From: Methylomusa anaerophila
Lineage (GTDB): Bacteria; Bacillota; Negativicutes; Sporomusales; Sporomusaceae
Length of the DNA stretch: 64,000 nucleotides
Direction of reading: 5' to 3'
Assembly: GCF_003966895.1 (NCBI RefSeq)
Contig: NZ_AP018449.1
Coordinates: forward strand, 317,424-381,423
Made by a program: the position numbers and the translations under genes. Positions 991-45,747 of the stretch are shown in pieces (the first letter of the stretch is position 1; every line of letters starts with the position of its first letter). The notes beneath the pieces are model-generated. The model made no database searches. It was not told the origin of the DNA and saw only the letters and a program-made list of their open reading frames with translations.

Positions 991-1773
991 TCACTTGCCG
1001 CCAAAACGATTTTCAGTTGTGATGCCGTATCTTCCCAAAGCTTGGGCGCTAATGACCCGGATAAGCTTATCGGTAAAGAACCCCATCAGCCCCAGGGATA
1101 TCAAGCCGATAAATACCCAGTCGGTTTTAAAATAGAGCCGTGACGTCCAGATCAGGTAACCGATGCCTTCGTTGGCCGCAATCATTTCCGCGCCCACAAT
1201 TGCCATAAAAGAGTTTCCCATGGCCAGCCTTACACCGGTGAAGATATAAGGAATTGTAGCCGGAATAACAACATGGAAGAAAATTTGAGTCTCCGAAGCC
1301 CCAAGGCTTCTGGCAGCCCTGATTTTTTCTTCATCCAGGGCCAGCACACCTGATGCCGTATTTAGCATGACAATAAACGATGTACCGTACATGATAAGGA
1401 TCAGTTTCGATTCCTCGCCGATGCCAAACCACAAAACAAATAAAGTAATGAAGGCAATTGAGGGAATAAAACGGAAAAAGTTAAGATATGGATCAATCAA
1501 CTGGCGAAAAATCTTAACATGGCCTATGAGTAAACCAATAGGCGCTCCCCATAAGCTTCCTAGCAGCCATCCGGCTAAAACCCGGCGCAAACTAACAAGA
1601 ACGAAGTTTAACCAGGAGCCATCGGCAAGTAATTCCATTAATCCGTGCACAACGTCCAGAGGACCAGGCAGAAAATCAGGCTTGCCAAATGTAAGCGAAG
1701 CAAGCTGCCAGATACCGATTGCAGCCAGCCAGGACGCAACACCGATTTTGAGTAAATATTGTATGAAATTCAT
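991..1773 (-). CDS. ABC transporter permease, SsuC/TauC/NitT family
   Basis: 260-residue hydrophobic protein with about six membrane segments and the binding-protein-dependent permease EAA-type loop (LDEEKIRAARSLGASETQIFFHVVIPATIPYIFTG in pieces near residues 145-180). Length fits SsuC/TauC. It lies 24 bp after the ATPase gene and 66 bp before the binding-protein gene, so the three form one importer. The family carries sulfonates, taurine, nitrate or thiamine precursors; the substrate cannot be read from this sequence. Confidence 0.9.
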   Translation of the reverse strand: MNFIQYLLKIGVASWLAAIGIWQLASLTFGKPDFLPGPLDVVHGLMELLADGSWLNFVLVSLRRVLAGWLLGSLWGAPIGLLIGHVKIFRQLIDPYLNFFRFIPSIAFITLFVLWFGIGEESKLILIMYGTSFIVMLNTASGVLALDEEKIRAARSLGASETQIFFHVVIPATIPYIFTGVRLAMGNSFMAIVGAEMIAANEGIGYLIWTSRLYFKTDWVFIGLISLGLMGFFTDKLIRVISAQALGRYGITTENRFGGK

Positions 1774-1797
1774 GAACCTCCACCTTTAACTGCCGAT

Positions 1798-2613
1798 TTA
1801 AACAACTAACTTTTCTTGATTCTCACATACTGATATTTCTTCGAAAAAGTTGGCTGCAATTTTCTTATAAAGATCATTGAACTCCCTGGCGGTTATGTCT
1901 CTGGGATAAGGAAGTTTTACTTCATGAATTTTATAAATTGTGGCATCCGGGGACTTGGACATAATGCCAATTCGCTGACCAAGCAGTATTGCTTCCTGGA
2001 TATCATGAGTGACAAAAACTATGGTTTTTTTGGCCTGGATCCAGATACGCACCAACTCCTGCTGCATACTGCGCCTGGTCATGGCATCCAGGGCGCCGAA
2101 GGGCTCATCCATCAGTAATATGGCCGGGTCATTAGCCAGTACTCTGGCCAATTGGACCCTTTGCTTCATCCCGCCGGAGAGTTCGCGGGGAAATTTATTT
2201 TCATGCCCTGCCAGCCCGACCAGCTTGATGAATTTATTTGAGATCTCCTGCCGCTTACCTGGATTTACCTTCTTCATGCGCAAACCAAATTCAATATTCT
2301 CTCTGACATTAAGCCAGGGGAACAAAGATGCATCAGGGTGTTGAAACACCACGGCCCTTTCCCGTCCGGGCTCACAAATAGGCTGGTTGTTGAGCAACAG
2401 GCTACCGGCTGTCTTATCAAAAAAACCAGCGATAACATTTAGTAACGTGGACTTGCCGCAACCGCTTGGTCCCAACAGCACAAAGAATTCTCCGCCATTT
2501 ATCCGCAGGTTGATATCCTTGAGCACGTTATGAGTATTCGGTCCGGCCGTTGCAAATGTTTTAGCCAGATTCTCAATCAAAATGCAGTTGACCTGATGTT
2601 GACCAGTTAACAT
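1798..2613 (-). CDS. ABC transporter ATP-binding protein, SsuB/TauB/NitT family
   Basis: 271 residues. Walker A is GPSGCGKST (about residues 49-57), the signature is LSGGMKQR, and Walker B ILLMDEPFGALD is followed by the H-loop VTHD. The pattern DEPFGALDAMTR is typical of NitT/TauT importers. It energises the permease encoded next. The gene begins 30 bp after the last nitrogenase-like subunit gene (stop at 2644), which ties the importer to the nitrogenase-like operon. Confidence 0.92.
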   Translation of the reverse strand: MLTGQHQVNCILIENLAKTFATAGPNTHNVLKDINLRINGGEFFVLLGPSGCGKSTLLNVIAGFFDKTAGSLLLNNQPICEPGRERAVVFQHPDASLFPWLNVRENIEFGLRMKKVNPGKRQEISNKFIKLVGLAGHENKFPRELSGGMKQRVQLARVLANDPAILLMDEPFGALDAMTRRSMQQELVRIWIQAKKTIVFVTHDIQEAILLGQRIGIMSKSPDATIYKIHEVKLPYPRDITAREFNDLYKKIAANFFEEISVCENQEKLVV

Positions 2614-2643: not shown

Positions 2644-3990
2644 TTAGCCGACCTTGTCTCTTAGCCCGTGATTAAGCCGGCTTTGCCAGGACAATATCCG
2701 ACCGGTTAAGTCTTCCACTAAAGTAATTGCACCATTAAAACCAATATAACTTTTGCTCAAAACGGCTGTATCGGTAATAGGAAACGAAACTTGCAGTACC
2801 GGAACATTTAATTCTGCCGCTATCTCTTGTTCCAGGACGCTTCCCAAAATCAACTCGACGTCATTTCTGCGGATGATGTCATTAATCCGGCCCCGGTCTT
2901 CATTAAAGAAAACTTCTGTTTTAGAGCCCCGAACCAGTTGCTTTATCTCTTCGCTTAAACGCTCTTGACAGGACTGGGGCGGGTTATCCGTTATGATCAC
3001 TACTTTGGGAATCAGCCCAAAGGATTTGCTTAAAAACCTGGCCAGGCCAAGGGCCAACCCGGCCTCCCCGGCCAGCGCAAACTCTTTTTGCAAGTCGTAT
3101 TCAAAATAAGCGTCAGTAATTCTCTCCAGGTAATGGGCCAGACGCTGTTCTTCCCGTTGTTGCACTTTTGCCAACTTGCGGTCATCTAAATTCAACTTTT
3201 CCCTCAGCACCTGAAGAACCACACTGGTATCGTCAACCCCTACCGGCAGACTGTCAAACGCCAGAAACGGGGTACCGAATTTGTTTTCCAAATAATCGGC
3301 AATTCCTGTACCCCAGGGAGAAAATATCAGATTAAGCTCTGCCTGGGGAACTTGCTGCCAGGTTTTGATGCTTTGACCAAAACCAAAAAGAGTATTGGCC
3401 GTCAAACCTACTTCGGCTAGTATATTTTGCAATTCCCAAAGATGGCCTTGCCAAAAAACGTCCTGCCCGGGAATGATTCCCAGAATATTGACAAATCGAA
3501 AATTTTCTTCTGCCGGCACTTGGGCCAATTTAGGCAACTGTTCAATAATTCTTTTTACCGTTACTTCATAGCCGGTGTGGACATCCCCCTTAAAACCCGG
3601 GGTTGAAACATGAATTACCGGCAACCCCTGCTCCTGGGCTTCTTTGGTCATTGCCGGAATATCGTCACCGACAAGTTCGGTGGCGCACCCTGACAAAACC
3701 ACGTACAAATCAGCCTTAACAATCTTCACCGTATTCTTAATTTGTTCCCGCAACCGGGATGAACCCCCAAAAATGACCTGTTTTTCCATAATGTTGGAAG
3801 ACGGTGTTGCTACCCCGCCGGTATAGCCGGCACCGTTCCAACCGCCAACCCTGCTCCCGCCAAGATATTGCTGAATTCCGCAGCCGGCGGTAGAATGAAC
3901 AATAGGTACGATCCCCTTTACCGCCTGAACAGTCTGAAGTGCGCCGGCAAGTACACAATGATTGCGCGAACTCTCAATTGGGTGGCCCAT
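2644..3990 (-). CDS. Nitrogenase component-1-like protein, beta/NifN-like (second pair)
   Basis: 448 residues of the oxidoreductase/nitrogenase component 1 family. Three cysteines sit where the NifK P-cluster ligands lie: C12 (NHCVLAG), C37 (STAGCG) and C102 (LSGCATELVGDD). The protein lacks the long N-terminal extension of classical NifK. It starts 1 bp after its alpha partner (3992-5413), implying translational coupling and a heterodimer. As the beta half keeps its cysteines while the alpha half has lost most, the pair could hold a subunit-bridging Fe-S cluster of altered type or be a cofactor scaffold like NifEN. Function is inferred. Confidence 0.85.
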   Translation of the reverse strand: MGHPIESSRNHCVLAGALQTVQAVKGIVPIVHSTAGCGIQQYLGGSRVGGWNGAGYTGGVATPSSNIMEKQVIFGGSSRLREQIKNTVKIVKADLYVVLSGCATELVGDDIPAMTKEAQEQGLPVIHVSTPGFKGDVHTGYEVTVKRIIEQLPKLAQVPAEENFRFVNILGIIPGQDVFWQGHLWELQNILAEVGLTANTLFGFGQSIKTWQQVPQAELNLIFSPWGTGIADYLENKFGTPFLAFDSLPVGVDDTSVVLQVLREKLNLDDRKLAKVQQREEQRLAHYLERITDAYFEYDLQKEFALAGEAGLALGLARFLSKSFGLIPKVVIITDNPPQSCQERLSEEIKQLVRGSKTEVFFNEDRGRINDIIRRNDVELILGSVLEQEIAAELNVPVLQVSFPITDTAVLSKSYIGFNGAITLVEDLTGRILSWQSRLNHGLRDKVG

Positions 3991-3991
3991 A

Positions 3992-5413
3992 CTATTTTAC
4001 CTCCAGCTTGATGTACCAGTTGGGACTTTTATGATACCACCCCTGTTGGTAGAGCGATGCCGAATTTTTCTTTAGCTTCTGGACAAAAGACTTGTTGAAA
4101 AGTGCTTTTTTCAACCGGTGACTAACTTCAGCTACTCCCTGATATCCCAATATTGATAAATTATCCACCGCTATTGCCGCAATACCGAGCTTAGCCGCCC
4201 AAACCGCATTTTCCGCATTGCCAATATAGACGTCCGGTTTTAGCCGTTCGAGAATATTAGCCTGTTCAAAAGGCTGACCTTGAGCCACGTGTACTTGCAG
4301 AGCCGGATTTTTATCTGCCACTTCGGCTAGTTTAAGCTGATGCAATTTATCGATATGATGAACGGTTAAACCTACCACTTCCGCTCCCAATTCTTCCACC
4401 AAACTTGCCATACCGCAAGCAGTTGAGGTCGGCAGGTTAATATAAGCCTTTACATTTGTAAAATCACACATCCCCATCGAAGGCCCGAGCTGACTCATCC
4501 CCGCCACATTCAACTCATCCGCTTCCCGTTCCAGCCCTACAGCCTTACCCAGAGCAGCAAGCCAGTGGTATGTTCCCTTTATCCCAATAGGCGGCGCCGG
4601 CTGCAAAAACTGTACCCCGTAATTTTCCTCAAGTATTTGCCCTAAATAATGACTATAATCGGAATTAATACTGATCGAGACTTTGGCCCGGGGAGCCTTA
4701 GTGAAATTTTGGATATCAGCAGTGCGGGGCAGGATGTTAGCTTCAAGCCCCAGGCCATTGATCATTCTTTCGATTTCTCTGATATCCTGGCATCTTTCCG
4801 TTATTGAAAGTAAGTTAATAAAATTGCCTCGTTCACAGCCCTGCTTAAATGGCAGGTATTTAATCAAAGCATGCAGGGCGGTATCATAACCTGTAATGCC
4901 GGTTTTGGATTTGAAACCGTCAGAATAAACGGGTACAATGATGAGCCCCAGTTCCGCCCGCAACTCTGCAACAACAGAAAAAATATCATCATTGTTAATC
5001 GCCACAACCGGAGTGGCAATAACGAAAATTATCTGGGGTTGATACCGGCGGTTGAGCGTGATTATGGCTTCCCGCAAGCTGGCTTCGCCCCCCATAATTG
5101 TGTCCCGTTCATTCAGATTGGTTAACGCCCACCGGTTTTTAAACTCACCGGAAGTTTCGAAATACAGTTGGCTGGCGCTACACCCCCTGGGTCCGTGGAC
5201 AATGGCGACAACATTATTGATCCCGCTAAGCAGGCGCAAGACACTGACAACATCATCAACCGCAGTCTGGGAGAAGGTTCTGACCCGCTGTTTCATATCC
5301 TCCTTCTTAAGCTCCTGCAACAGTAAGCCGGCTTCGCCAAAGTAGGCGCTTAGCGTATTCAGCCTTTTTTCCCTGACGGAGACGGTTTTTCCCTGCAATG
5401 AATTTGGCTTCAT
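3992..5413 (-). CDS. Nitrogenase component-1-like protein, degenerate alpha/NifE-like (second pair)
   Basis: 473 residues, family recognised from HGPRGCS (C78), TNLNERDTIMGGEASL and GYQGV near the C-terminus. Aligned by eye with the alpha protein at 8746-10248 and with NifD, only the second P-cluster cysteine (C78) remains. The first is replaced (about T50/A51) and the third is P135 in IATPVVAINNDD. The cofactor cysteine is replaced by N in SINSDYSHYL, and there is no histidine at the position of NifD H442. A standard P-cluster plus M-cluster arrangement is therefore unlikely. Its start has a clear GGAGGATGG ribosome site. Roles as scaffold, insertase or a divergent reductase all remain possible. 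Confidence 0.85.
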   Translation of the reverse strand: MKPNSLQGKTVSVREKRLNTLSAYFGEAGLLLQELKKEDMKQRVRTFSQTAVDDVVSVLRLLSGINNVVAIVHGPRGCSASQLYFETSGEFKNRWALTNLNERDTIMGGEASLREAIITLNRRYQPQIIFVIATPVVAINNDDIFSVVAELRAELGLIIVPVYSDGFKSKTGITGYDTALHALIKYLPFKQGCERGNFINLLSITERCQDIREIERMINGLGLEANILPRTADIQNFTKAPRAKVSISINSDYSHYLGQILEENYGVQFLQPAPPIGIKGTYHWLAALGKAVGLEREADELNVAGMSQLGPSMGMCDFTNVKAYINLPTSTACGMASLVEELGAEVVGLTVHHIDKLHQLKLAEVADKNPALQVHVAQGQPFEQANILERLKPDVYIGNAENAVWAAKLGIAAIAVDNLSILGYQGVAEVSHRLKKALFNKSFVQKLKKNSASLYQQGWYHKSPNWYIKLEVK

Positions 5414-5430: not shown

Positions 5431-6306
5431 CTAAATTGCCGCTTCCTGTCTAACGACGCCTGCTTCCATCTCAAATATCCTGTCGCCCCAATCCCTTGCC
5501 CAATTTCTTAATTCAGTGACACCCAGCGGTTTAGGTATGACGGTCTCATCATTTTCCACAATATAGTGCGCCAACTGTCTGTATATCCGGGCATGCTCCG
5601 ATTCGGGCGAAGCTTCAATAACTGTCTGCCCATACAGCTCACTTTGAGAAACAATAAGGGAGCGCGGCACATATCCGGCCACTTTAGCGCCGGTCCGGTT
5701 GGCAAAATCATCAACAATACCCTGGGAATACACGGCCGACAAGCCGTTGGCGATTATCCCTCCCAGTAGAGCTCCGTCGAACGACGCATATTTATTGATA
5801 GCCTTAAACAGATTATTGGCAGCATACAACGCCATAAAATCAGATGAACTGACTACAAACACTTCATCGGTAATACCTTCCCGGATGGGTACGGCAAAGC
5901 CGCCGCACACTACATCGCCCAGCACGTCATATAAAACGAAGTCGGGTTTGAATTCCTCAAATAATTTCAGTTCCTGCAGCAATTCCACCGCCGCGTTAAT
6001 TCCCCGTCCCGCGCAGCCTACACCGGGAACCGGCCCGCCGGCTTCGATGCACAACACCCCTTTAAAACCGACTGCCGAAATATCTTCCAGCCTGACTTTG
6101 GTTTCATCTCTAATACTATCTAAAACTGTCGGCAAATATTTGCCGCCGCGTAAAGTATTGGTCGAATCACTTTTGGGATCGCAGCCGATCTGAATCACCC
6201 GGTAACCGGTTTCCGCCAGGGCCGCGCTTATATTTGAAGTGGTTGTAGACTTGCCTATGCCGCCCTTGCCGTAAATGGCAATCCGTTTTGGGTTCTTTTC
6301 CCCCAT
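5431..6306 (-). CDS. NifH-like nitrogenase reductase (Fe protein)
   Basis: 291 residues, the usual Fe-protein length. Visible are the P-loop GKGGIGKST (13-21), GCDPKSDST, the [4Fe-4S] cysteines C98 (VGCAGRG) and C134 (DVVCGGF), and the switch regions. It would pass electrons with MgATP hydrolysis to a D/K-type partner. It is the only NifH-like protein in the window, so it must serve one or both component-1-like pairs. It lies 17 bp before the E-like gene, and is separated from the D/K/X genes by a 578-bp gap carrying inverted repeats. Sequence alone does not separate Nif from Nif-like (group IV) reductases with certainty. Confidence 0.9.
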
Positions 6307-6351: not shown

Positions 6352-6403
6352 AAATACTGCAGGCCAAGTATATTCCTTGCGGAATTACCAGCCTGCAGTA
6401 TTT
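6352..6403 (-). promoter_or_regulatory. Leader hairpin before the nifH-like gene
   Basis: A perfect 13-bp inverted repeat (AAATACTGCAGGC at 6352-6364, its complement at 6391-6403) encloses a smaller stem (ATTCC/GGAAT). It lies 46 bp upstream of the nifH-like start codon and has no long T-run. It could stabilise or process the downstream part of the operon mRNA so that the reductase is made in a different amount from D/K. This is inference. Confidence 0.6.
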
Positions 6404-6714
6404 CTGCTCAGCACAAATTGTTAAAGATTGGGTTTATTATAGCACCTGATAATAACCGCGTAAGTCACCCAGACGACATTTGCAAGAAAATTTACAGCAT
6501 GCTTTATCCAATTACGGCTACCCCCGCTTTGATAAGTATCGTTACATATGTTAACTTATTGCAATAAAGCTTGCTAATTACAGTTCGACTATCATAGCCA
6601 CACCATTGTTGCATTAAACTCTGCAATTAATGATTTGATTATCATAGTCGCACCGTGGGCTGCCGCTTCCGGACTTCGGGGAGGGGGAGGGAGAAATTCC
6701 CCTGCCGAAGCCCA

Positions 6715-6897: not shown

Positions 6898-7311
6898 TTA
6901 CTTGCACCCTTGCGAGCATCCGCAGGAGCCGTTATTGCCTTCTGATGACCGACAATCCACAGCTGTCTTAAGAATGCTGTTCTTTATGAATTTGCCTCTT
7001 TTCCCATAAGCCTTTAATGCTTTATCAATGGAACCGGTCACAGGTAAAGCAATAACCCCCTGCCTTCGTAATTCTCTCTCCGCCCTGGGGCCAATTTGAA
7101 TCACCAGCACTACTTCGACGTCAGCCAGCAATTCAGCTGTAGCACCGGCAGTGTGCCCGGTGGCATCCTGGGTGCAATGGGGACCGTTTTCCCGGCGTTC
7201 CAAAAACGTGTACGCGCTTTCATCAACTTCATAAATCCAGAATTCTTTTGCTTTGCCAAAATGTTCATTGATTGATATTCCGTCGGTAGTGGCGACAGCA
7301 ACTTTAGACAT
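6898..7311 (-). CDS. NifX/NafY-family dinitrogenase iron-molybdenum cofactor-binding protein
   Basis: 137 residues from ATG 7311, which has AGGAG 8 bases upstream; a GTG three codons earlier lacks such spacing. The domain reads KVAVATTDGISINEHFGKAKEFWIYEV in parts, then GPHCTQDATGHTAGATAELLADVEVVLVIQIG, with a C-terminal Cys-rich tail (CGCSQGCK). NifX/NifY/VnaF-type proteins carry cofactor precursors between assembly and target proteins. Its place just after the D/K genes suggests that the D/K pair receives an assembled metallocluster. No NifB is in the window; if needed it must be elsewhere. Confidence 0.88.
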   Translation of the reverse strand: MSKVAVATTDGISINEHFGKAKEFWIYEVDESAYTFLERRENGPHCTQDATGHTAGATAELLADVEVVLVIQIGPRAERELRRQGVIALPVTGSIDKALKAYGKRGKFIKNSILKTAVDCRSSEGNNGSCGCSQGCK

Positions 7312-7404
7312 GTTTTTCACTCCTCTTAATTAATGAATAAGCTGCATCCCAAATTTTTGGAATACAGCTTCTGGCTAATGAACTCATCCGTGCTAATCTC
7401 TTGA

Positions 7405-8742
7405 TTATAGCGGTCCGCCGTATTTAACCATAAGATCCTCCATCAGGTTCAATCCGCCCCGATAGCCGACATAACTGCGATCTACAATAAGCCGGTCGTA
7501 AGCCGGAAAACCCACACTGAGGAATAAGGCGCCGCCAAGTTCCTTCTCCGCGATATACCTTTCCATAGAGCTGGCGAACACGATCTGAACGGTATAATTA
7601 CGGAGCAGCAGTCTGATTTTATGGGAATCGATTTCAAAAACGACTTTGGGTTTCAATACACTTTCCAAATCCTCGGTTAAATCCCGGATAATTCCTTCCC
7701 GATATTCTTGCGGCGGATCGTCGGTGACAATCACAATTTCAGGATTAAACCCAAGTTCATTGGTGGCATATTTTGTAACCGCTATCGCCGTGCTGCTGTC
7801 GGCTACCACTGCATAGTACGCGTGGGGTATGGCGACAACCAATATATTCCCTACATACTCCGTAAAACGGTAAGCGTCCCTTTCCTCCCCGTTCACCACT
7901 CTGTCAATGACATCCGGGGATATTTTAAATTTATCGCCAAGTACTTGCAGGAATTTAGTCGTATCTTTGGGCCCAATCGGTAAAGAGGGAAAAATGTGAT
8001 AGGGAGTGCCAAAGCGCTCTGCGAGCTTTTTAGCCGGGTTGATACCCCACAAGGAAAATACCAGATTTAATTCAGCGGCGGGAATCCTGTTTAAGGCTTC
8101 CAAGCCGTTTAAATCACCAAATATAATGTTCGCCTCAATGCCGACTTTTTCCAGCAGTTGTTTAAGATTGCGAAGATCCCCTTTCCAGAAAATATTCTGT
8201 GTGGGGACGACTCCCAAAATATTTACCGTTTTCTTTTTGACCGGCTGTTCTTTTAGCAGTTGATCAATAACGGCGTCAAAATAGAGTTCATACCCCTTAT
8301 ATGAATTCCCGGCGAAACCTGACGTTTTGACATGGATAAGAGGTGCACGGTCACGAAATTCCGATATTACCGCGTCTACATCGTCACCGATCAAAGCAGG
8401 TACGCAAGCCGAGATTACCGTATATAAATCGCCAGGCATCAGCTTAATCGTACTGTCAATCAGTTTTCTTAATTTGTCCTCGCCGCCGAAGATAACATGT
8501 TCCTCAACTAATGTGGAGCATGGCGTGCTGGCGCCGCCAACCGGACCGGGGCTGTTAAGCCCGGAAGCAAAACTCTGGCCAAAATTTTGGGCAAAGCCGC
8601 AACCGCCCCCGGAATGCAGGATAGGAACAGAGCCAAAAGTGGCCAAGGCTGCCGCATAGGCTCCGCCCATGGCGCAGGAATATCTCGGAGCCTCAACAAT
8701 CTCAGGAAATAATTGCGGCTCATCTTCTTTTGCCAACGCCAT
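7405..8742 (-). CDS. Nitrogenase component-1-like beta subunit (NifK-like)
   Basis: 445 residues. All three beta-side P-cluster cysteine positions are present: C23 (YSCAMGG), C48 (GGGCGF) and C113 (ISACVPALIGDD). Family marks STPCSTLVEEHVIFGGEDKL and GYRGGLNLMEDL are also present. Its length is nearer VnfK/AnfK and nitrogenase-like proteins than the longer NifK. It begins 3 bp after the alpha gene, so the two are coupled. It should pair with the 500-residue alpha subunit to make the catalytic heterotetramer. Confidence 0.9.
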   Translation of the reverse strand: MALAKEDEPQLFPEIVEAPRYSCAMGGAYAAALATFGSVPILHSGGGCGFAQNFGQSFASGLNSPGPVGGASTPCSTLVEEHVIFGGEDKLRKLIDSTIKLMPGDLYTVISACVPALIGDDVDAVISEFRDRAPLIHVKTSGFAGNSYKGYELYFDAVIDQLLKEQPVKKKTVNILGVVPTQNIFWKGDLRNLKQLLEKVGIEANIIFGDLNGLEALNRIPAAELNLVFSLWGINPAKKLAERFGTPYHIFPSLPIGPKDTTKFLQVLGDKFKISPDVIDRVVNGEERDAYRFTEYVGNILVVAIPHAYYAVVADSSTAIAVTKYATNELGFNPEIVIVTDDPPQEYREGIIRDLTEDLESVLKPKVVFEIDSHKIRLLLRNYTVQIVFASSMERYIAEKELGGALFLSVGFPAYDRLIVDRSYVGYRGGLNLMEDLMVKYGGPL

Positions 8743-8745
8743 CGA

Positions 8746-10248
8746 TTATTTTGCCTCCCCGTTTGCAAAATAAAGCGGATCAGGCTGTTGATACCACCAC
8801 TCGTTGTATACATCCGGTGTCTTTTCCAGCATCGTCTTTTGGAACGAGCGGTTTTTTGTGGACTGCAGCAGGAAGTTGCCGGCAGCTATTGCTCCTTTGT
8901 ATCCGGCCTGCGCGCTCCAGGGACGGGCATCTCCCCGGGCAGAGTGGATTCTGGTTGCTCCTCGGTCGCGTTTATAGGCGCTTCCCTGGAAGGGGCAGGT
9001 CAACGCGATGTCCGGATCATATCTTCTGGTGTGATGGGCCACTTCCGCCGCCTGGAAAGTATTGACCAAAACGTCAAAATCCCCGACCTCTTCGATCAGT
9101 TTTTCCGTTTCATCCACTACCAGGTTATCAAAATCAAGACAAATGGCAGCCGGCGTTTTTACCCCTAATTCATTGAAAAACGGAACTTGGGTAAGCATTC
9201 TTCCCTGTCCCAAAGAGCCAAGAACGTTAATATCTTGGCCTTTGCCAATTTTGTCAAATTCCTTCTGTATGACCTCCAGTTTGGGCAGCCACTCATCGTG
9301 TTCTTCCACGATTAATTTTTCCACTTCTTTTTCTTTACCGGTATAGTAAGCGATGGCCCGCAGCCACTCATCCGTATGTTCTATGCCGATAGGCGAAGGA
9401 TATAAGAAGTAAGGTACACCGTACTCCTGTTCGAGACCCCGCGACAGGTAATCGGTAAATGAGGAGCAGATAGGAGCGGTAACAGCCGCCTCCGACAGTA
9501 TTTCAAACTGCTCAACTGTGGAAAATTCAGGAACAAAGTTGGGCCGTAATCCTATTTTCCCCAGCAACCGGGTAATTTCTATCCGGTCCTGCCAGGTATA
9601 AGATAACATACTGGCCACATTGACAAGATCTTTTTGCTTCTTGGCAGGCTTTTTCACCAGGTATTTGAGTATACCGTGCCAAAAAGCATCATAGCCGGTT
9701 TGTATAAGCTTGGAGCGAATTCCTTCGCAGTGGATGGCAACTATTCTTGCATCTATCTCCGGCTGAACCTCGTCCACAATTCCCGCGATGTCTTCCCCGA
9801 TAATGCCGGTGGTGCAGGATGCCAAAACAAATATTGCTTTGGGGTTATATCTCGCTTGCGCCTCCTGGATGGCGTATTTCAATTTGTCGCCGGCTCCGTA
9901 AATAACATCTTTTTCGTTCAGGTTGGTAGTCAGCCAATGAAAATCATAGTTTTCCGGGCGCCCCAAAGAGGTCGGAACCTTGCGGAATATTTCCCGATAT
10001 CCCAAACCAACCACAGAGCAGCCCACCGGCGCATGGACAATCATCACCGAATCACGAATTGTCATAACACGCTGGGTTAGATAGAAGTTTAAAAGACAAC
10101 CCGACGACTGTTGAAAGGAACGTTCCCGGTTTGGTACCGCCCCATCCTTTACCTCTTTAATGAGCTCACTGGCTTTGCCGAAAAACGCGTTAATGCCATT
10201 ACCGCGTTGTTCCCTGGTGGGGCAGGTATTCTCTTTTAGATTGATCAT
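8746..10248 (-). CDS. Nitrogenase component-1-like alpha subunit (NifD-like, ligands retained)
   Basis: 500 residues. P-cluster cysteine positions are C51 (SSGCLLN), C77 (HAPVGCS) and C145 (ASCTTGIIGED). The two cofactor ligands of NifD also have counterparts: C261 (APICSSFTDYL; NifD C275) and H435 (TRIHSARGD; NifD H442). DPOR, COR and CfbD-type enzymes lack these two, so a NifB-derived cofactor is likely. The protein differs clearly from NifD, VnfD and AnfD around H435, and no VnfG/AnfG delta subunit is present. This points to a nitrogenase-like enzyme such as methylthio-alkane reductase, or to an uncharacterised clade. First gene of the operon. Confidence 0.88.
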   Translation of the reverse strand: MINLKENTCPTREQRGNGINAFFGKASELIKEVKDGAVPNRERSFQQSSGCLLNFYLTQRVMTIRDSVMIVHAPVGCSVVGLGYREIFRKVPTSLGRPENYDFHWLTTNLNEKDVIYGAGDKLKYAIQEAQARYNPKAIFVLASCTTGIIGEDIAGIVDEVQPEIDARIVAIHCEGIRSKLIQTGYDAFWHGILKYLVKKPAKKQKDLVNVASMLSYTWQDRIEITRLLGKIGLRPNFVPEFSTVEQFEILSEAAVTAPICSSFTDYLSRGLEQEYGVPYFLYPSPIGIEHTDEWLRAIAYYTGKEKEVEKLIVEEHDEWLPKLEVIQKEFDKIGKGQDINVLGSLGQGRMLTQVPFFNELGVKTPAAICLDFDNLVVDETEKLIEEVGDFDVLVNTFQAAEVAHHTRRYDPDIALTCPFQGSAYKRDRGATRIHSARGDARPWSAQAGYKGAIAAGNFLLQSTKNRSFQKTMLEKTPDVYNEWWYQQPDPLYFANGEAK

Positions 10249-10303
10249 TGTACAAACCTCCTGTTCTTTTTAACTTTTATCCAATTGCAACTATATGAAA
10301 AAA

Positions 10304-10338
10304 GAGATCATTTTCTTATGAATAAAGAAAATGATCTC
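10304..10338 (-). terminator. Intrinsic terminator in the 5' leader (attenuator) of the nitrogenase-like operon
   Basis: Read on the minus strand, a perfect 14-bp stem (GAGATCATTTTCTT / AAGAAAATGATCTC, loop 7) is followed by TTTTTT. It lies between the promoter at 10384-10412 and the first start codon at 10248. Readthrough must therefore be controlled for the operon to be expressed. A short upstream sequence (CCAG, 7 bases, CTGG) overlaps the stem base and could act as part of an antiterminator. No known riboswitch fits, since only about 40 nt precede the stem. Confidence 0.8.
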
Positions 10339-10383
10339 CAGCAACTCACTGGTCAATCCAAGTCAGTATATTACGTTTTTATT

Positions 10384-10412
10384 ATTGTATTACACTATTT
10401 GGAAGCTGTCAA
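10384..10412 (-). promoter_or_regulatory. Sigma-A type promoter of the nitrogenase-like operon
   Basis: On the minus strand TTGACA (10412-10407), a 17-base spacer, then TACAAT (10389-10384). The predicted start near 10377 gives a leader of about 130 nt containing the attenuator. No sigma-54 (GG-N10-GC) element was noticed here. The DNA between this promoter and the marR promoter (10413-10721) shows no gene and no further motif that I can support. Confidence 0.75.
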
Positions 10413-10721: not shown

Positions 10722-10780
10722 TTGACGAAAACCGGTAAGGGTGTTAAATTGTAATTGTTAATATATTAACAATTACAATT
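10722..10780 (+). promoter_or_regulatory. marR promoter with perfect 34-bp palindromic operator
   Basis: TTGACG (10722-10727), a 17-base spacer and TAAATT (10745-10750) make a promoter. From 10747 to 10780 the DNA is an exact palindrome of 34 bases centred on TTAATATATTAA, covering the -10 box and the start site. Such a site is expected to bind a dimeric MarR repressor, giving autoregulation. Confidence 0.8.
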
Positions 10781-10832
10781 GGGGGTCGTAATAATTCAAG
10801 AAAACGGAAATACACCGGAGAGGTATCTTTCC

Positions 10833-11246
10833 ATGCAGGTGCTCCATGAATTTAATTTGCTTCAAAATATTTTTGAAGATGTTTTTTCTATGCATTTTGC
10901 GCGTTATGGCCTGTCGTGGCCGAAGTATAAGGTTTTAATTAATCTCTATATGTCGGGTGACTATGGATTGATTCAGTCGGAATTAAGCGCGAAGCTGCTT
11001 GTCTCCAGGGCAAATATAACCAGCTTGATAGAGCGGTTGGAAAAAGAAGATCTGGTAATTCGCAGAAACGATTCCGCCGATAAACGAGTGTTTCGAGTTT
11101 ACCTCAGCAACAGGGCTGTTGCACTTATGCATGCATTTCTTCCCATACATAATGATTTTGTGCATAAAGCCATGTCATCGCTTAGTACATCGGAAAAAAA
11201 AGAATTGATTTTTCTGTTAAAAAAACTAAATACGGGATTGGATTGA
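10833..11246 (+). CDS. MarR-family transcriptional regulator
   Basis: 137 residues from ATG 10833, which has GGAGAGG about 9 bases upstream. An upstream in-frame TTG at 10779 lies inside the operator and lacks a ribosome site. The winged helix-turn-helix (ELSAKLLVSRANITSLIERLEKEDLVIRRNDSADKRVFRVYLS) is classic MarR. It is divergent from the nitrogenase-like operon, whose promoter is about 420 bp away, and is probably autoregulated through the palindrome. Whether it also controls the operon is unknown. Its ligand could be a sulfur compound or a phenolic; the sequence does not say. Confidence 0.9.
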   Translation: MQVLHEFNLLQNIFEDVFSMHFARYGLSWPKYKVLINLYMSGDYGLIQSELSAKLLVSRANITSLIERLEKEDLVIRRNDSADKRVFRVYLSNRAVALMHAFLPIHNDFVHKAMSSLSTSEKKELIFLLKKLNTGLD

Positions 11247-36922: not shown

Positions 36923-37054
36923 AAAATTCCTGCCTCCTGTTTTTGAAGGCCAAGGAAAAATGCCATTTGCATCATCCTTGGCCTTCATTTTTTCTTTGAT
37001 CAGCCATAATATCAACTTACCCTAAATTTTACAATATGATAATACGTTTAGCAA

Positions 37055-45530: not shown

Positions 45531-45567
45531 AAAACAAAAAAAGCTAAGGACATTTACATTCCTTAGC
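45531..45567 (-). terminator. Intrinsic terminator between the Phd-like gene and the MFS gene
   Basis: On the minus strand GCTAAGG (45567-45561) and CCTTAGC (45549-45543), followed by a run of T (TTTTTTTGTTTTT). It would end the antitoxin transcript before the MFS gene. Confidence 0.75.
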
Positions 45568-45747
45568 CTTCAGTTTCCTACTGATCAGCAATGGTATCGC
45601 AATGGCAAATCCTATTTTACATTACCAATTACCCATGTATGTTGGCAGTACCGCCCGGATGAGATCGATTCCTTCATTACTAAACTACCACAAATTAGTT
45701 GATCACGCAACTGTTTTGTGGCAGTCAGCAAAAAGCGTTTTCCGGTT

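Follow-up and report, generated by a model that had tools for sequence, protein, structure and literature searches.

The leader preceding the nitrogenase-like operon of Methylomusa anaerophila is best explained as a default-off attenuator of a sulfur-scavenging regulon, opened most likely by a DUF2292 protein, a reading to which we assign a probability of about 0.7. The locus lies in a stretch of 64,000 nucleotides (the window), in which the first-pass annotation had pointed to a promoter followed about 40 nt later, ahead of the first start codon, by a perfect 14-bp stem and a T6 tract. All of these features are present on the minus strand (Table 1), the stem lying about 40 nt past the expected transcription start. 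The promoter matches the consensus at 11 of 12 positions, a quality reached by only two sites in 20 kb, and the terminator, made of the arms GAGATCATTTTCTT and AAGAAAATGATCTC, has the highest pair count among the terminator-like sites in 20 kb. The operon has NifD-, NifK-, NifX- and NifH-like products followed by a NifE/NifD- and NifK-like pair. A gene for a MarR-family regulator (10779-11246, plus strand) runs divergently from the operon, and its product may contribute further control at initiation.

Table 1. Features of the window that bear on the leader, the related elements and the operon
Feature	Position	Strand	Basis or detail
Sigma-70 type promoter TTGACA-17-TACAAT	10384..10412	minus	sequence; -35 TTGACA 10412-10407, -10 TACAAT 10389-10384, spacer 17 nt
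Antiterminator hairpin GAUU-GA-CCAG-UGAGUUG-CUGG-A-GAUC, 26 nt	10333..10358	minus	folding and covariation; internal loop 5' GA 10354-10353, 3' A 10337
Intrinsic terminator stem-loop, 14 bp	10304..10338	minus	sequence and folding; 14 perfect pairs, 10338-10325 / 10317-10304, loop 7 nt
Terminator T6 tract	10298..10303	minus	
Shine-Dalgarno AGGAGG, first operon gene	10257..10262	minus	
NifD-like (Oxidored_nitro), first operon gene	8746..10248	minus	ATG at 10248
NifK-like (Oxidored_nitro)	7405..8742	minus	
NifX/NifB-C-like (Nitro_FeMo-Co)	6898..7320	minus	
Second, weaker element, inside operon before NifH-like gene	6386..6416	minus	UGCU-GA-GCAG-AAAUA-CUGC-A-GGCU; tail TATTTT
NifH-like	5431..6306	minus	
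NifE/NifD-like (Oxidored_nitro)	3992..5413	minus	
NifK-like, second	2644..3990	minus	assigned from translation
ABC transporter ATPase and permease, nitrate/sulfonate/taurine type	991..2613	minus	assigned from translations
Fourth, imperfect element beside Shine-Dalgarno site	36976..37008	minus	no T run
Third element and terminator (T7)	45561..45593	minus	before MFS transporter gene (45503-44133)

A comparison of leaders in relatives, named beforehand as a check, showed that the arrangement is kept. It recurs at one further locus in M. anaerophila, where a pattern search found a second full copy upstream of a NUDIX gene with promoter, leader and terminator conserved, and at the orthologous operon of two other genomes (G044 and the MAG of L034), in which a nifD-like gene follows a promoter, a short leader and a terminator of different sequence. 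Such repetition, within its own genome and in two others and with different sequences, takes the arrangement beyond chance. In Sporomusa KB1, S. silvacetica, G009 and G003 the gene order differs, and elements lie elsewhere in the cluster, preceding nifX-, nifH- or other genes.

The core of the leader is a weak hairpin whose general architecture is a 4-bp helix, an internal loop with GA on the 5' side and A on the 3' side, a second 4-bp helix and then the terminator, with a U-G pair flanking the internal loop in most copies and terminal loops of 4-9 nt. Since the 3' strand of this hairpin is the 5' arm of the terminator, which contains its A and GAUC, the two structures cannot coexist. When cut after the terminator 5' arm, the window leader folds as GAUU-GA-CCAGU-loop-GCUGG-A-GAUC, and at full length it folds the terminator; among four leaders treated in this way, the truncated form gave the exact hairpin in three (window, second own copy and G044) and a related one in L034, while the terminator formed in all four at full length. 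In all 92 distinct elements obtained from the loci fetched, the terminator is the more stable structure (median -21.6 vs. -6.7 kcal/mol), and the antiterminator, being far weaker, needs a factor holding it. These results support the attenuator that the first-pass annotation had placed in the leader, as well as the short alternative stem that it had thought implied, in the form of a covarying stem mutually exclusive with the terminator.

A covariance model built from three leaders recovered elements with wholly different helices that keep the 5' GA and the 3' A, such as GACU-GA-CUUA..UAAG-A-GGUC and AGCC-GA-UUAG..CUAA-A-GGCU. In 30 aligned elements all pairs are kept, with double-sided changes at seven of the eight, and the covariation score is 0.816, vs. 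0.385 for shuffled and at most 0.16 for slid versions; the script having demanded pairing, weight rests on the controls and slid versions and not on the 100% pairing. Three near-identical elements of the first of these helix types (L093, L094 and L100; G000:C1:261516, 246785 and 1807639) were observed in M. anaerophila with no clear sulfur gene behind them; a NUDIX gene follows one of the three and also the copy at 271465.

The element is numerous. A strict script required two 4-bp helices, the internal loop G[A/G] plus A and a terminator that includes the outer 3' strand. In the first 687 kb examined it gave about 35 distinct elements, against none in the reversed sequence; in M. anaerophila, the strict descriptor gave 25 copies in the 433 kb covered of the 4.78-Mb genome, vs. 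0 in reversed sequence. When the same geometry was searched in M. anaerophila DNA with free loop letters, GA/A accounted for 23 of 35 matches, with no more than 2 in any other of the 64 loop classes. By covariance model, M. anaerophila has about 40 copies, and the element occurs in 81 of the 380 genomes examined in the class. Matches of model R2 at E values up to 0.5, the weakest of which are uncertain, number 44 in M. anaerophila, 52 in S. silvacetica and 35 in G044, with a few sites in Geobacter-type and Desulfobacterota-type genomes. Four of them fall in the window: in the leader, before the nifH-like gene, before the MFS gene and beside cysteine-synthase-like genes, the last coming after cystathionine-synthase-like and cysteine-synthase-like genes. 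No Rfam family matches the element at gathering scores, Rfam detects no known riboswitch in the window, and no description of the element was found in the open-access literature. Permissive Rfam matches on the leader (PyrR, 22.6 of 54 bits, rli60 and miRNAs) were judged to be chance. Another conserved element that carries a terminator, ACAACUGGCUGGC(U)AAAAGCUGGAGGCUGUGUUCCA..UGGAA..CAGCC, is followed by a conserved stretch, GGAAGCCGCC..CCGACCAAGAGTTGAGCGA, and was seen at L098 and L101 (G000:C1:268839-268909 and 273687-273760, minus) and at L074 (G006:C73:100636-100707); it resembles the motif and breaks the GA/A rule.

Behind the M. anaerophila elements lie genes for sulfonate-type ABC permeases and ATPase, cysteine synthase (cysK), O-acetylhomoserine sulfhydrylase (metY), rhodanese, sulfopropanediol dehydratase, an enzyme of the methionine gamma-lyase/cystathionine-synthase type and an activase of the 2-hydroxyglutaryl-CoA-dehydratase type, together with nifB, nifH, three nifD-like genes, an MFS transporter, NUDIX genes and a DUF2292 gene. 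Judged from these predicted functions, sulfur acquisition is the common theme of many of the targets; the elements at 246845, 261577, 1807653 and 271465 have no obvious sulfur gene downstream. Nitrogen is not indicated by the neighbouring genes. The nitrogenase-like operon, with an enzyme of presumed organosulfur substrate, would belong to organosulfur scavenging. In common with the methylthio-alkane reductases (described in PMC12552129) and other nitrogenase-like systems, it has nitrogenase-like D, K and H genes and cofactor genes in a sulfur-scavenging context. Searched with the query protein, the M. anaerophila genome (G000) shows about a dozen nitrogenase-component-1-like matches, many of them in one region (nifD-like genes at 196630, 214766, 225266, 274846, 313371, 321442, 403491, 1606655, 4416664 and others), which points to a family of different reductases.

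Attention was drawn to DUF2292 by an element located directly before a DUF2292 gene in M. anaerophila. The family is present in 77 of the 81 genomes with the motif vs. 66 of the 299 others (Fisher 4e-35, uncorrected for kinship), and among the 119 nearest relatives its odds ratio with the motif is 378, vs. 9 for the nitrogenase-like genes. Two of the four motif genomes in which no DUF2292 was detected are about 60% complete. The association is also seen within genera: in g6, motif and DUF2292 are both missing from G013 and G027 and both present in G020, G023 and G025; in g16, G096 alone has either. All five Desulfobacterota-type MAGs, which were chosen for a motif near a nifD-like gene, encode a tandem, two-domain DUF2292; in the class, the family usually appears as two domains or as two adjacent genes. 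A DUF2292 gene is often followed directly by an element and then by cysK or metY, and in Geotalea the order is nifB-DUF2292-nifH-cysK-ssuC-ssuC-ssuA-nifD-nifK. DUF2292 genes were found inside the nitrogenase-like operons of L241 (G164) and L036 (Geotalea), between nifD-like and nifX-like or nifB and nifH-like genes. This almost perfect co-occurrence favours the other implication drawn in the first-pass annotation, that of an RNA-binding antiterminator, for which it makes DUF2292 a plausible candidate.

On profile scores, the candidate factor is a predicted member of the OscA/YezD/DUF2292 family and a different equivalog from OscA, scoring 95.7 and 54.2 bits for DUF2292 (PF10055; Pfam gathering cut-off 22) and 28-56 bits for the OscA equivalog (NF033785; cut-off 85). 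These small proteins, the candidate trans factor, form a sulfur-starvation family: oscA is known from the response of Pseudomonas corrugata to sulfur starvation, according to work cited in PMC2996968. The literature searched yielded no molecular function and no link to RNA or antitermination for the family. Structural comparison of an AF2 model of the single DUF2292 domain of L036, with a pLDDT of 66, gave no clear RNA-binding relative, the best structural Z being 3.3 (hibernation factors). DUF2292 is the best candidate for the antiterminator, its RNA binding being suggested by genomic association.

A further piece of information came from the upstream regions of the DUF2292 genes themselves. 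In at least 11 genomes (G096, G035, G068, G025, G038, G061, G020, G022, G023, G017 and G120), a SAM riboswitch (S box, RF00162), scoring 84-93 bits, lies directly before DUF2292 genes. The physiological theme is one already familiar from the S box in Firmicutes. The element itself is no S box and has no known ligand; its action seems to come one step after that of the riboswitch. In G096 the order is SAM riboswitch, tandem DUF2292, an element overlapping the DUF2292 stop codon, a terminator and the gene for an ABC transporter lipoprotein, an arrangement like that of bglG, with a regulator gene followed by attenuator and target. In M. anaerophila, neither DUF2292 gene directly follows a SAM riboswitch: none was found before the copy beside cysK, and the other copy is preceded by an element, through which it would amplify its own expression.

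A close mechanistic parallel is LicT/SacY/BglG, in which a weak hairpin with internal loops (RAT, bound by CAT_RBD) likewise overlaps the terminator 5' arm and depends on a protein to hold it, and in which the bglG order is regulator, attenuator, target. The element differs from RAT in its GA/A internal loop, its length of about 26 nt and its association with sulfur instead of sugars. It has no RAT sequence or structure and no Rfam gathering match (the bglG cis-regulatory family reaches 19 of 80 bits in L034), and CAT_RBD (PF03123) is absent from M. anaerophila and 10 of the 11 relatives searched (present in 1 of 12 genomes). BglG had been suggested by a G044 gene upstream of the operon that ends in a PTS-IIA-like domain, but its sequence is that of a sigma-54-type PRD activator, and CAT_RBD is absent. 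In G044, the operon leader is immediately preceded by a sigma-54-type PRD regulator gene (L054:9800-12688, minus), which adjoins PTS/EIIA, dehydrogenase and aldolase-like genes.

It is possible, although we consider it rather unlikely, that antiterminator and regulon both exist as described and that another RNA-binding protein or factor holds the hairpin; DUF2292 could then be a sulfur-starvation protein that is co-regulated, serves some other role and is only a target. The M. anaerophila DUF2292 gene located behind an element is what would be expected of a target, and 66 genomes have DUF2292 and no match to the motif, whose model is strict. Against this stand the regulator-before-element gene order, the control of DUF2292 by the SAM riboswitch, a co-occurrence much tighter than that of the nitrogenase-like targets and the fact that, among the few families tested, no other emerged. 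An ANTAR protein of the EutV/NasR type, as proposed for the nitrogenase genes of Pelobacter carbinolicus, would be a known kind of factor. ANTAR proteins (EutV, NasR, AmiR) do mediate protein-dependent antitermination of nutrient-scavenging operons, this mode of control is established for nitrogen genes and their regulons include predicted nitrogenase ones (PMC3369931), and M. anaerophila encodes a single ANTAR response regulator, next to a histidine kinase. Their targets, however, are two short-stem hairpins having hexanucleotide loops with A1 and G4 (PMC3369931), whereas the element is a single hairpin with loops of 4-9 nt and no such signature. Most genomes of the class encode ANTAR, with or without the motif (75 of 81 motif genomes vs. 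202 of 299 others, a weak association), and it is absent from six motif genomes of the class and from all five motif-bearing Desulfobacterota-type MAGs (among them G383-G387, G045 and other motif genomes). The ANTAR explanation was thus rejected on motif and distribution, and we hold it to be extremely improbable.

Two explanations dispense with a protein antiterminator altogether. The hairpin might be a very small, protein-free metabolite riboswitch, for instance for a sulfur metabolite, as the strictly conserved GA/A loop, the frequent flanking U-G pair and the sulfur theme could suggest. Its size of about 26 nt, its single 3-nt internal loop and its freely varying terminal loop and helix sequences speak against this, as do the absence of an Rfam match and the sensing of SAM upstream by a standard riboswitch; to our knowledge, all known metabolite aptamers are larger. 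We therefore regard this riboswitch as improbable. Short promoter-terminator units are often small RNA genes, and the promoter and terminator could likewise form a stand-alone RNA of about 75 nt, the operon having its own promoter. In L034, however, the T run lies about 15 nt from the Shine-Dalgarno site, leaving no room for another promoter, and the element repeatedly precedes same-strand genes with the antiterminator geometry kept, so this explanation is hardly credible.

In the preferred reading, that of an attenuator opened by DUF2292, RNA polymerase would start near 10384 and, unaided, would stop at the terminator (10338-10298). Alternatively, the nascent leader would fold the 26-nt hairpin, trapping the first bases of the terminator 5' arm, and DUF2292 would bind the GA/A hairpin co-transcriptionally under sulfur shortage; the direction of the response, induction by sulfur shortage, is likewise what we infer. 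In some relatives a cascade may operate, in which low SAM would lead to the synthesis of DUF2292, the opening of dozens of terminators and the onset of organosulfur scavenging, and the nitrogenase-like operon of the window would be among the operons switched on. With somewhat less assurance than we hold the default-off attenuator, we think it probable that DUF2292, a widespread small protein, is the first of a new family of antiterminators that bind RNA and recognize a GA/A-loop hairpin, relaying in many anaerobes the signal of the SAM riboswitch to dozens of sulfur-scavenging operons, the nitrogenase-like ones included.

If this is true, it would account for the joint activation of many sulfur-scavenging and nitrogenase-like operons in a group of anaerobes, and it would provide the first molecular function for the OscA/YezD/DUF2292 family. 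It would also add a class to the known kinds of antitermination, one where an RNA-binding protein that acts on other leaders is made under riboswitch control, and the nitrogenase-like operons located behind such elements would serve sulfur, and not nitrogen, nutrition.
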